From Undaria pinnatifida (Eukaryota > Sar > Phaeophyceae > Laminariales > Alariaceae), in NCBI GenBank assembly GCA_012845835.1, contig JABAKD010000019.1:6123494-6187493 (forward strand): 64,000 bases of DNA, written 5' to 3'. The translations under genes and the position numbers were made by a program. Shown in pieces: positions 46,201-52,200 of the stretch. Each line of letters begins with the position of its first letter. Within the stretch, counting starts at the first letter, position 1. Below the pieces are notes generated by a model that did not search any database, was not told the origin of the DNA, and worked only from the letters and a program-made list of their open reading frames with translations.

Positions 46201-49200
46201 CGCGCTTGGCACTTCAAGCAGTGGCGAAGCCACCACCGGGTGCACACATTCATGCCAATCTACCAACGAAAACGCTCCAGCATGCGCAACGTGCGCGTGG
46301 TGCCAAGGTGGCAAGAGGCCGTCGAGTGACAAGCTTGCATGATCCAAGCGCACATGAGCAGGGAAACGTAGATGCGAACTGGCTCGTCGTTTAGCAGGCA
46401 AGCAACTCGCCCCACAGAGTTGGGTTCGTCAGACCTTGTTGGCGGCAGTGTCGGGTTACGGACGAGTAGGACGATGTCGTCGTCGGTTGTATGTAGTCGA
46501 CCCTTACCCGCCAGCTCCTTGAGGTCTGAGAGGGATGGGCGCTTGTGCGAGAGGTAGCACGCCAAAACGTCGGGCGGCGGGACCGATGGCCGGCCGGTAG
46601 AAAGGTAACGCATCATGGCGTGGCACGTCGGCTCAGCGTGCTGCTCTCGCTTCCAATCGTCATGTGAATAACGCGCGACGGAATCAGCGAACCGCAATTC
46701 AGCAGCGTTGCCGAGGGCGTCCGACCTTGTATATGCAGTCAGCGTGTCACCAGGAGAAGGCGTGAGCCGTAAGAGAGGAGTTCCCATATAGGCTCTGCGT
46801 GGTCGCGGTCGGACGGTAGTGGCACCGTGCGGACCGGCGAGTCGGCAAGAGCAGAGATCGCGGCGGCGGGCGGAACCGGCCGCGGCCATGGGACTCGCGA
46901 CGGGTCTGTACCTTGTCTGGAAGATGGCCGAGGGGGCCCGCCGGGCCCGAATCCATAATCTACAGCGGGGGTGCATTACCCGTTGTTGTCGCTGTTCATC
47001 GGCGCGTCGTCGACGACGGAGGGGCTGGAGTACCAAGCATGGCGGAGACGGACACATGGTCGCGGCGGGGGCCGTCTCCTGTAAAGAACTCTGGGAAAGA
47101 TAAGTCGGCTGAGCGATGGGCGTCGCTGCAGCCAGGGCTTCTGTGGAGCCTGTAAAGAACTCCGGGATAGATAAGTCGGCTGTGCGATGGGCGTCGCTGC
47201 AGCCAGGGCTTCTGCGGAGCCCGTCCCGCCCTCGATGGGTATGGCAAAACCGAAGCGAAAACAGTGTCAGCGGCAGGTGAAATCGACCCGCGGCCGGTAC
47301 AGCCTTCGGTAGTGGCGACGGAGGCAGAAACACGAGCGACGAATCTCCCCGGGGAAGCATGTGTGTGCGAAAATCGTGAAAGCGGTAGAGGTAGGAGGGA
47401 GCCCACCCCAGGCAGCATGTTCAGTGCGGGGCACGAGCCCACCCAAGACAGTGCTTCGGCGAGGGGCGCGAGTCCACCCAAAACGACCCCTGGGATCGGC
47501 GAAGAGGGAGCGCGCAGCCCGCGGGTCCGTAGGAGGTAGATATCGCTTTCTCCAACGGGGTTGGGGCTTGTCAACCCCACGGGGTTGAAGTTTGTCAAGC
47601 CACTGCGGTCCTACTCCGTAGCAGGCTCTGGAAAACGGCCCAGAAAAACCGGCGATGCCGTCGGCGCTGCCTTTGCGGTACTCGAGTGTGCAATCGAACG
47701 GGGTGACGAACTCAAGCTACCGCTGGACTCATGCATTGAGGGTCCCCACTTTGCCAGCGCTCTCCTGTGTCTTGTGGCCGGAGGATTTGCGGAACTTTGT
47801 TCTCCAGAGTACCCTTGGAGGTGTTTGGGAGCCCAAACAATGCTGCCGGTCCCCAAATCTAGAGGAGTCCAGTGCCTCTCCGAGTCGAGCGTTGCTCGAC
47901 TGATATACGCGATTTTCACAGTGAACAAAAACGTCGTCCAGCATTACAGTACCCTCGACGAAACAGGGGCCGTGTTCTGACAGCGCAAAGTCAGGGGCGA
48001 CGCCAGAAGCTATCTCCAAACCTCCACGGCTTTTAATTGGCTAACGCGCCCGAGAAATAGGTCGGAAACGCCGAAGGGGAAGTTTTGCGAGCGCTGGCCG
48101 CTGTTAACGTCCCGGTTGCGGCGCGGACGAGATTTCTTGGTACTTGCATCCGCAGTGCAGGTGCGGAACCGACTAGGGGAGGCCGGGTGCGCCGACCCGA
48201 TCTCATTGTCGCGAATAGCTTCGCGAACGGCAGAAAGTGCCTCACCGAGCAAGTTTTTCCTCTCCCCTGGCATGGGTTGTTGGCCCTGGGACCATCCGCC
48301 CGGAGACCAATGCCCCACATTGGGTCCAGAGGACTGAACTCAGCCAAAAGCTTGTTGTCAGAGCTCACAAGGTGATTTTTTATGGCTGGATTCTTCGTGA
48401 ATTTGGCGTAGGTGCCAGATAAAACGGCGTTTTGCTTCCTCCTGTCCCCAACAGCGGAGTCAAAGTTGCGCACGCCTCGACCGATGCGTTTGCGTGTGCT
48501 TGGACTAGGCGACGATATGATGAGCCCCACTGCTCGATGGTCTTGCAAAAGCTTGGTATTTTCAGCCATCATGTACTGCTCCGCGCAAGAATATGGCACG
48601 TCGTCCACGGCAAACGACGAAGGGGACCACGGTGGAAAATAGGATGGGGGCTGCCAGAATAACACCACTTTGTCTATGGAGTATTCGAGAGAAGGGTCAA
48701 AACCCATGTTGGAATTTGGGCCTGCAATGTCCCCGTCCGGGAACACCAGGCCTCGGGAGCACGACGCGAATCCGAACCCGTGATATCTCGCCTCGGGTCT
48801 TTCTCCGCTCGTTGGCGGAAAAGCGCGAGAATCCGCCCTAACTGCGCCCGAAAAATGGCAAAAACCGACGGTGCCAACCCGTCGGTAGCCTCGTTGGACA
48901 TTTTTGGGTCTGCAACGTCCCCTTCTGTGAACACCAGTCCTCGGCTTTTTGGGCCTGTAGTGTCCCCTTGCGGGAGCGAAAAATGGCAAAAACCGACGGT
49001 GCCAACCCGTCGGTAGCCTCGTTGGACATTTTTGGGTCTGCAACGTCCCCTTCTGTGAACACCAGTCCTCGGCTTTTTGGGCCTGTAGTGTCCCCTTGCG
49101 GGAGCGCCAGGCCTCGGGAGCACAATGCGAGTCCGAACCCGGGGTTTCTTGTCCTGCCGTCGACGCCACATGTGAAGTTACTGGTGGGGACACAGAGTGC

Positions 49201-52200
49201 CCCCTGCAGGTCTGCCACTTGAGCAGGTCCTCGGAGAGTACCCACTTTCGTTTCCTTCGTAGAGACGTAGCTTTATTCGTTTCCACCAGAGCCCCGGATA
49301 GCTTCTGAGATCGGAGGCACGTGCCTCCGATCTATTTTCTAACTTTCCCGAATATAAAACGCCAACCTTATCATACGAAACCCATCCAAATGATATCAAA
49401 TTTGGATAATTACAGGCCTTTCGAGGTCGTATCTTAACAATCACATCACGTTGTGATTATTCTGAAGCATTTATTGGGCGACACATCAACTGTATGGTGG
49501 GGGCACTACAAACACATATTTCACATTCATTCACGGTAGAGAGTGTACCGCTGTGGTCGTATCATTGGGCATTTTATCGTACATACGGAGTATAATGGTT
49601 AGGATACATTTCATCAGGGGGTTCCACTGTCATTATTGGCCTTTCTTGTGGGCTCTTGAGATCTTGTGATACGAACGGCAAGGTCCATGGCCAATGGCAT
49701 GTCAATTCCCCGTGCGATAACGAACGAACTATTGCATTGTGGACAAACGCACTCCGAGCCTACGAGGGGAAGTCTTCGGAGCTGATACCGCCGAGCCCGC
49801 GGTCGCGCGAGTCGGTACAATTGAATTGGGGAAGTTCTGGTTACCGCCAAAAACGTAACCAATTTTCTTTTCGGAGGCCGCAAAGTACTGTTTTGCGTGC
49901 TGGTGTGGAACACCAGCCGGAAGCAATGGAAGACCCTACAGCAGCAAGAGGATCACGAGCGCAGGGCGCTGATGGAGTCCATTCTGCAAGCTGGGGCAAC
50001 CCGAGAGGTGGAGGCCGAGCCGACGGCCGGCAGAAGCCGGAAATCAAGGTGACGATCGGGGGAGATATAGAACACCTAGGGTTGGTGGTGTCGTTGTTAC
50101 TTTCGAAGATATGCGTGAATTTTTTCTTGCCTACTCGGAGTACGAGCAGCAGATCCGTATCACAAAAAAAACAAGATGGAGGAGACCGGGTACTCGCGAG
50201 GAGGCGAGAGCTGGTGGATTCGGCGACCCAAATGATGGTGGCTGATGAATTCTACGATGACAAGCTCTTGATCGACCTATCCGAGGAGGAACTAATGAGG
50301 AACTAATGCAAGGGCTCAAAAGGTTTGCTGCCGTTGATATGTAGCAAACGAGTGATGAGGATTTATGCCGCCAGATAATCCGTGTGCTGAAGATGGATGC
50401 GAGCGTGCCGGTAGATGGCAGGATGTTCATGCGAAAACGTGCCCTGCGGAAATACCTTGCTGACAGCGGGCTCACGGAGGTGGTGAGGCCCGACGGTCGG
50501 CAGTACACGCTAAAGCATGGCAAGGTGCTGGTGGAGGTAACAGCGGCGGGAATTAAGCCACTCGAGTTCCGCTGCAAGGTGAAAAAAGATATGCCTTTCG
50601 ATCTCGTAACGCACGGCCCTGACGCGTTGTTCAGCATAATTGCCAAGCAGCAACTGGATCAAGCCGTAATTGAGGCTAACGATGCTGTACGCCGGCAAAC
50701 GGCAAAGCGGCGTTACACTAGGTCGGTGGCTGTTGCGGGGACCAAGCCGCAGGGAAGTAGTGCTGACGGGCCCGACTCACGCGAGAGTGCCAAGGCTGCT
50801 GATGTGAAATCAGAGTGAAACCGTCGGTACGACAACAAGGAGTGCTTTGTGTGTGACAAGCAAGGTCACAAGCAGCTGGACTGCCCCCAAAGCCAGCAGG
50901 GTAAGACGGGGAAAGATGTCCATAGCCACAGCCACGGCCAGACCCCTATGCAGCAGCAGTCCACAAGCGGTCCCGCCCAGCATACCCGGAGCAAGACAAC
51001 CGGGATGGCATCTGCGTCTGTCACCCCTCGGGCTAGTGCGTACAAGACCGCCTTAAAGGCGGCGGTTACGGAGACCGAATCTGCTGCGCCTGAACCATGT
51101 ACGCGGAATGACGACGACTACGTGTACATTCGCGTGCCGCGGGGGAGGATGGCGCCAGTGGATTATGGGTTCACCGAGACGGTGCAGCACCAGGTATGTC
51201 GAAGCGCGGGACCACAGAATGCAGCGCCAGTTCTTCACTCCGTTCCGGTGCGGCTGCCGACACCCGCGTCGCAGCAGTCATGTGGTGATACCAGCACCAT
51301 TTCATACGCGCGTGTCTCGGTCTTACACCCGGGTGGAAGTGGTGATACGAGCGTGGATACGGTGGAGACCGAACCGCACTTGGAGGCCTTGACGCAGCAT
51401 GTCGCAGGGCGTCTCGCGGCTCCCGGTGCTTCCGGGGCTACTGAGGCAAAGGTGCTGATGGATTCTGGCTCAGGCATTACAGCTGTATCGGGAGCTGGTA
51501 AAGGCCCTGCAGGGACGGCCGGGGATGACGCAAACCGCGTTAACGCAGGCGTTCGTTGGGCATGCGCGTGAGGTGACGTCGTTGGGCCAGGAATGCGATA
51601 TTGAGACGCAATCGTGTCCACTCCACTTAACGATCGAAACACCATCGGGATCAGTCCGATTTACCCTGCCGTTCATCGTGCTCCCTGGGTTTGGCAATGT
51701 GGTTATCATCGGGCAGAAGATGCTGAGAGAGAAACTCGGCATCGACGTCATGCGCAGCTCAAGGCCTCTGTACCGAAGGCACAAGGGCGTCAAGATGGTG
51801 CTGGGATGGAGCTTACAGCTCGTTCCGTGGGCAAGCCCAACGATTTTGCTGTCCTGCGAGCGTCGATGGTTGTCACAGCGTTCGTGCCGGGCGGTGACGT
51901 GCCAGGCGATGTGGACGATGAGGCCGCGCTGACGCTGCCGTCTCAACGACCCATGACATTCCAGGATTCCGAGGTGGAAATGCGGGATCGTGTTGGCGTG
52001 TTGGAGGCGGCTGTCGATACCGCTGTTGATCATGGCTCCCCGCCGGAATGTGTCAAGATGCTGCGCAATATCGTTTTTCGCACGCACCTTGACGTATTAT
52101 ACCGGGCGTTGTCGGGTGACCCACCTGCACGCAAGAAGCCTGGGGCGGTCCGGCTTCATTCAGGGGCAAGGGTGGTGCGGGCGAAGCCCCCACCTGAACG

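Follow-up and report, generated by a model that had tools for sequence, protein, structure and literature searches.

A probable NADAR relic in a non-autonomous Ty3/gypsy element of Undaria pinnatifida and its apparently maintained counterpart in full-length relatives

Does a retrotransposon that carries a NADAR domain carry a working enzyme, and what would such an enzyme do for it? The question is raised by a stretch of 64,000 nucleotides from the brown alga Undaria pinnatifida (contig JABAKD010000019.1, positions 6,123,494 to 6,187,493; hereafter the window, the whole stretch analysed, in whose numbering its features are given), where a minus-strand reading frame at 48033-49286 encodes a NADAR domain within a long terminal repeat (LTR) element. 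A preliminary description, made from the letters of the window, had seen in it a NADAR gene in the gag position of a young element, possibly directed against a host response based on ADP-ribose. Our results indicate that this 5,389-bp minus-strand element is very probably a recent, non-autonomous insertion that derives by deletion from a Ty3/gypsy lineage and carries a decaying NADAR relic, while the active site of the domain appears to be maintained by purifying selection, less strictly than reverse transcriptase (RT), in full-length relatives elsewhere in the genome.

The domain assignment itself held. The sole Pfam match of the frame is NADAR (PF08719; 97.8 bits for a cut-off of 35.1, E 1e-27), and the frame also matches the solved NADAR of Phytophthora (8bau_A, E 7.9e-8). 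The description of the LTRs as near-identical was likewise borne out: the 5′ LTR (49171-49439) and the 3′ LTR (44051-44319), both of the form TG...CA on the minus strand, differ at 4 of 271 aligned positions (98.5% identity) and are flanked on their outer sides by a short target-site duplication, ATCA on the plus strand and TGAT in the orientation of the element (44047-44050 and 49440-49443). The frame does not lie wholly between them, as had been thought; its first 116 bases belong to the 5′ LTR, which makes its start codon implausible as the beginning of a gene. The linker ahead of the domain contains a perfect tandem duplication of 2 × 128 bp (48849-49104, minus strand, repeat family D5), and the domain occupies residues 210-344 (48255-48659, minus strand). 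Residues are numbered here after the Phytophthora NADAR of PMC11543638, with a chain-to-paper offset of 2 derived by hand from alignments. The positions E43 and E125 are retained in the window copy, and the ADP-ribose-contacting K50 and W89 are replaced by Asn and Gly, respectively. The A-E-Q-Y-M-M...K motif read in the preliminary description is therefore broken at its functional lysine. Judged from these residues, the domain is NADAR by descent and probably not an active enzyme.

To place this copy among its relatives, ten NADAR loci were fetched from the same genome with approximately 10 kb on each side. LTR-like direct repeats flank eight of them (none were found in L015/L016 and L025/L026), integrase was detected in all ten, and RT in nine, one of which, L023/L024 (lineage C), has it in broken form. 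L025/L026 (lineage D) has no detectable RT, apparently lost through a deletion that differs from that of the window family. The window 5′ LTR is 90-93% identical to LTR-type stretches in the loci with full-length NADAR elements. Element L009/L010, of 15.46 kb, with no mismatch over the 267 positions of its LTRs and TATA on both sides, reads in the order gag, UGA, Pol with NADAR, an LLDTGS protease motif, RVT_1, RNase H, H2C2 and rve, and its gag carries the CCHC knuckle CLNCHEDTHSLRNC. In full-length members, Pol starts with a low-complexity stretch followed by NADAR, which is thus placed in N-terminal Pol, behind gag and an in-frame UGA and before protease, RT, RNase H and integrase. This domain order rules out the gag-position reading of the window copy, in which NADAR appears in that place because gag is deleted there.

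The gag CCHC knuckle, the LLDTGS motif and the UGA at the gag/pol border were present in all four copies read, two from lineage A (L009 and L012) and two from lineage B (L014 and L027). The UGA lies at L009 8674-8676, L012 1345-1347, L014 1283-1285 and L027 8882-8884, and the bases upstream of it are similar across the two diverged lineages; it is a candidate readthrough signal. Matches to rve range from 30.5 to 33.4 bits and straddle the cut-off of 32.6, and the Pfam match to the Ty3 peptidase is sub-threshold (E 0.25), the label “protease” being given from the LLDTGS motif alone, which we take to be a signature of that enzyme. The C-terminus of Pol (L010:4722-6095) has no Pfam match to a chromodomain, and a chromodomain-like stretch is visible there by eye only. 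One LTR mismatch each was counted in L011/L012 and L013/L014; among eight LTR pairs outside the window, all with unrefined ends, a shared 4-mer flank was seen in two (TATA in L009/L010, CATC in L017/L018) and in none of the other six. The few LTR mismatches in these three elements suggest recent activity of the full-length NADAR lineages.

Alignment to L009/L010 accounts for the present form of the window element. The region from just behind the 5′ LTR to shortly ahead of NADAR, which holds gag and the start of Pol, is gone. A second junction, at 47913-47920 on the minus strand, marks the loss of 2.1 kb (L010 630-2717) with protease, RT and the beginning of RNase H. It is followed by a frame-broken Pol remnant from later RNase H to integrase (45665-47913, minus strand), in which rve is matched at 45846-46148 with 28 bits, below the cut-off. 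At a third junction (45665-45671, minus strand) some 740 bp are missing (L010 4900-5638), and what remains (44320-45664, minus strand) derives from the Pol C-terminus and the 3′ non-coding region, the interval 44050-45671 being 88.8% identical to L010 5639-7224. The frame at 45212-45649 yielded no Pfam domain. Neither gag nor RT of its own was found in the window copy by Pfam search and alignment to L009/L010, and it is because both are deleted that we call it a non-autonomous derivative. Such an element presumably moves on proteins supplied by its full-length relatives.

The same derivative recurs throughout the assembly (511,146,479 bases in 68 contigs). In a first scan, 40 copies including that of the window were scored from 1,173 first-look candidates, and the 39 others all span the RT-deletion junction at 88-94% identity. 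In a second scan (24 scored including the window copy, from 4,751 candidates; locus C22:25414391 is common to both scans), the junction is spanned by 22 of the 23 others, the remaining one beginning 9 bases before it. The deletion of approximately 740 bp is, among the copies compared, private to the window: 22 of 23 sisters keep 716-741 bases between the blocks that flank it, and one is without the second block. One sister of 7.15 kb (C35:1183301-1190453) begins at the LTR start and stops 12 bases before the LTR end is reached. The window copy thus belongs to a non-autonomous family, whose RT junction it shares, and has undergone one further deletion that is private to it. A NADAR profile run over the genome gave 1,454 first-look candidates; 150 of them were scored, and every one exceeded the cut-off. 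Together with the 39 other family copies, judged by eye to be distinct from these, and the window copy, NADAR is present in at least about 190 copies, intact or broken. The view of the window element as a mobile LTR element with NADAR as recurrent cargo is thus upheld, and a single accidental capture, the alternative that the preliminary description had set beside it, is ruled out by copy number. Among known kinds of derivative, a close parallel is offered by large retrotransposon derivatives (LARD-like non-autonomous LTR elements), which likewise have no RT of their own and many copies; the window family differs from them by its Pol fragments, including the NADAR relic and an integrase remnant. 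Three NADAR copies (L084, L102 and L104) look chimeric, with a 5′ part like the non-autonomous family and a 3′ part like lineage A, a pattern that template switching between co-packaged RNAs would produce.

Within the non-autonomous family, the NADAR sequence shows the marks of a relic, with little or no maintenance by selection. All 40 copies, the window copy included, have Gly at the W89 position. Among the 39 others, K50 is Asn in six, E43 is lost in three and E125 in seven, and 22 have a stop or an indel within the aligned 135 codons. The pooled ratio of non-synonymous to synonymous substitution rates (dN/dS, or omega; all omegas were obtained by the Nei-Gojobori method) is 0.81 over the 39 copies and 0.80 over a set of 17 that show neither gap nor stop in the frame applied to them; this set shares 14 members with the 17 copies that are unbroken across the aligned stretch (the former set leaves insertions uncounted and excludes three rows whose ends are unaligned).

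The full-length lineages present another picture. NADAR is a hydrolase of guanine-ADP-ribose for which the residues at positions E43, K50 and E125 are important (PMC11543638). All eight of the positions E43, K50, K75, R79, W89, E125, D130 and W133 are retained in 10 of 10 of L001-L008, L013/L014 and L015/L016. Lineages A-D, taken together in 56 rows, retain E43 in 51, K50 in 53, R79 in 56, W89 in 52, E125 in 55 and W133 in 53, counts biased to intact copies by the choice of 40 rows for their lack of stops, with linkage to RT checked for ten elements; the R93 position is Lys in 31 rows and Arg in 24. Glu at the E125 position, which is Asp in the BC4488 family, is found in the window copy, in 55 of the 56 rows and in 32 of the 39 other non-autonomous copies. 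The pooled dN/dS of lineage A NADAR is 0.375 (17 equal-length rows, eight with identical proteins). Between lineages, for pairs with finite dS, the NADAR omega is 0.15-0.17 (A-D), 0.29-0.30 (D-B) and 0.32-0.35 (C-B), estimates that rest on dS of ~1.3-1.8, near saturation, and in which lineages C and D are represented by a single copy each, the former with a broken RT and the latter with none detectable; for RT, the omega between lineages is 0.06-0.09. In close pairs, NADAR gives 0.39 and 0.56, and RT 0.12 and 0.43. Relaxed substitution, which the preliminary description would have taken as a sign of accidental capture, is accordingly a property of the window family (dN/dS ~0.8) and not of the full-length lineages (omega 0.15-0.35).

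In the full-length elements, readthrough of the UGA would make a Gag-NADAR-Pol protein, and NADAR would so enter the particle at Pol dosage. There it may act on the RNA or cDNA of the element and remove from it either ADP-ribose, in all likelihood linked to guanine, or a related modification derived from NAD. Taking its RNA-directed and defence-directed versions jointly, we consider such an enzymatic mechanism in the full-length elements to have a little less than an even chance of being correct. The RNA-directed version draws weak support from a gene of the tRNA 2′-phosphotransferase family, three exons of which were matched in the genome by an exon-wise search; this family uses NAD on RNA. 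That NADAR serves RNA processing, or the metabolism of NAD-derived RNA modifications during reverse transcription, fits its identical placement in the Pol of both lineage A and lineage B, where it precedes protease and RT, and was suggested for such elements before (PMC12477816), but the substrate is hypothetical and the available biochemistry concerns guanine-ADP-ribose in DNA (PMC11543638), so that we hold this role only tentatively, as somewhat unlikely.

Several observations weigh against the interpretation developed so far. The decay of the relic is not far advanced, because the window copy compared with the 39 others gives a ratio of non-synonymous to synonymous differences per site (pN/pS) of 0.68 and because 17 of these 39 are unbroken across the aligned stretch. 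The same figures, with values of 0.30 for L004 against a set of 17 unbroken copies and 0.33 for L004 against the window copy, could indicate that NADAR still works in the non-autonomous family and is retained because it benefits that family. However, the ~0.3 values are expected to stem largely from the period that preceded the derivative, and the inter-copy dN/dS of ~0.8, the invariant Gly at W89 and the 22 broken copies disfavour maintenance by selection in this family; we regard the proposal as very improbable. In the full-length lineages, besides the saturation and the single copies noted above, NADAR is more weakly constrained than RT (pN 0.38 versus 0.14 between A and B; omega 0.32-0.35 versus 0.08 between C and B). 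With merely 49% identity between lineages A and B compared to ~80% for RT, NADAR might be a non-catalytic structural module of Pol, an explanation rendered quite unlikely by the presence of ADP-ribose-touching residues among the conserved ones. Also, the gag of the full-length relatives is without a Pfam match and is named from position and motif. Finally, exon-wise searching, which can miss genes, gave no match to the DarT family genome-wide (its control matched in 1 of 14 genomes). For PARP, a single exon was matched, and there is thus no evident DNA ADP-ribosyltransferase partner, although introns could hide one.

The last point bears on the role first proposed for this locus, counter-defence, in which NADAR would reverse host ADP-ribosylation of element DNA or RNA as it reverses DarT1 in bacteria. 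Such a role is unlikely for the window copy because its NADAR is a relic. For the full-length relatives it is possible, given that the family acts on guanine-ADP-ribose (PMC11543638) and that the active site is retained; the faster divergence of NADAR compared to RT could fit an arms race, but weaker constraint accounts for it too. The exon-wise search gave no DarT match, and a guanine-specific host transferase is only hypothetical. We thus consider counter-defence unlikely in the full-length elements as well, short of being implausible.

As to the origin of the domain, a bacterial source, as proposed in PMC12477816, is plausible. Our scan of prokaryotes was pattern-led and confirmed 241 loci, of which the 80 most similar to lineage A were compared, a biased bacterial sample; among these best 80 of 241, the closest sequences are from Myxococcota and Planctomycetota, with 57-61% identity for six Nannocystis loci and 59% for one Planctomycetota bin. 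Viral contigs gave 11 NADAR relatives at 38-51% identity. The NADAR genes of loci L188-L195, which lie on viral contigs between 22 and 462 kb in length, share 46-51% identity with lineage A. A NADAR tree of 102 rows and 150 columns, with an unsettled bootstrap and a long branch for lineage C, recovers one clade of A and D (100/99) and another of B and C (99/80). Forcing all 11 element rows together costs 0.23 log-likelihood units (p-value of the approximately unbiased test, p-AU, 0.448), the joint group being neither recovered nor rejected; a clade of A/D with 14 Myxococcota-type rows is likewise not rejected (p-AU 0.247). Independent acquisitions of NADAR by lineages A/D and B/C are therefore not required.

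Other repeats lie in the window, some of them shared with fetched loci. A second LTR-like pair at 49544-49820 and 52929-53189 (85.6% identical; 49544-53189 overall) encloses plus-strand frames, among them 50849-51571, in which a zinc-knuckle-like stretch and a DSG protease-like motif can be seen by eye; an inverted relative is found at 6256-9529 (82%). A dispersed repeat of ~200-430 bp occurs in both orientations within 35086-36133 and 41433-42924, and also beside fetched elements (L011 43-770, L017 6832-7320 and L021 1669-4762). Tandem arrays are present at 40573-41080 (spacings of 9-15 nt) and 59443-59858 (24 nt), and an identical 113-base stretch of the former occurs in L015.

The preliminary description knew of no LTR family with this cargo; one had in fact been published, for NADAR in the Pol of a Gypsy lineage was reported for Ectocarpus in 2025 (PMC12477816), and because of that report the kind of element described here is already known. 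Gypsy-12_Ec32 and its kin are likewise Ty3/gypsy elements with a YbiA-family NADAR in N-terminal Pol, and their best outside matches by blastp are bacterial, as are those found here, where prokaryotes alone were searched. Compared by description only, the present case differs by its 511-Mb genome assembly and by a window copy that has neither gag nor RT and whose NADAR is a relic. For the chromodomain reported at the C-terminus of Gypsy-12_Ec32, the L010 Pol C-terminus gave no Pfam match. The YbiA-family NADAR of Phytophthora nicotianae (8bau; PMC11543638) belongs to the same domain family, and its active-site Glu, Lys and Glu are retained in our full-length lineages; it is described as not linked to DarT, and the window copy lacks the equivalents of its K50 and W89. 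The toxin-antitoxin system DarT1-NADAR (DarTG1) has the NADAR domain in common, with the differences that no DarT was matched in this genome by exon-wise search and that the E125 position holds the Glu of the YbiA family, not Asp. Another brown-algal NADAR (DUF1768), the stand-alone Esi0017_0056 of Ectocarpus, also has mostly bacterial relatives, but it is reported as a host gene that stress induces, encoding 391 residues and predicted to have two introns, and not as part of a retroelement (PMC7922944). In Tx1 long interspersed nuclear elements (LINEs) of Crassostrea gigas, NADAR is retroelement-borne too, in an ORF1 and described as divergent (PMC12477816). Among the papers listed for NADAR, DUF1768 and YbiA, we found no report of NADAR in a retroelement besides PMC12477816.

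Taken alone, the window copy is in our view ordinary. What is new here is the second genome, the relic-bearing non-autonomous family, and the tests of selection and active site. The published NADAR-Gypsy lineage is now seen in a further genome, larger than the first and with no fewer than about 190 copies of NADAR, in which the domain appears to be maintained by selection in full-length elements and to decay after the loss of gag and RT, and the comparison illustrates how a single copy can mislead on both position (gag) and activity. Because the full-length lineages retain the ADP-ribose pocket, the question of function is now testable. Its boldest answer, which we hold to be unlikely, is that an abundant and recently active eukaryotic retrotransposon lineage packages a working ADP-ribosyl hydrolase in its Gag-Pol particle and strips host-added, guanine-linked ADP-ribose from its own cDNA or RNA; if true, this packaged enzyme would be a eukaryotic, retroelement-borne counterpart of the ADP-ribose conflicts of phages and bacteria.

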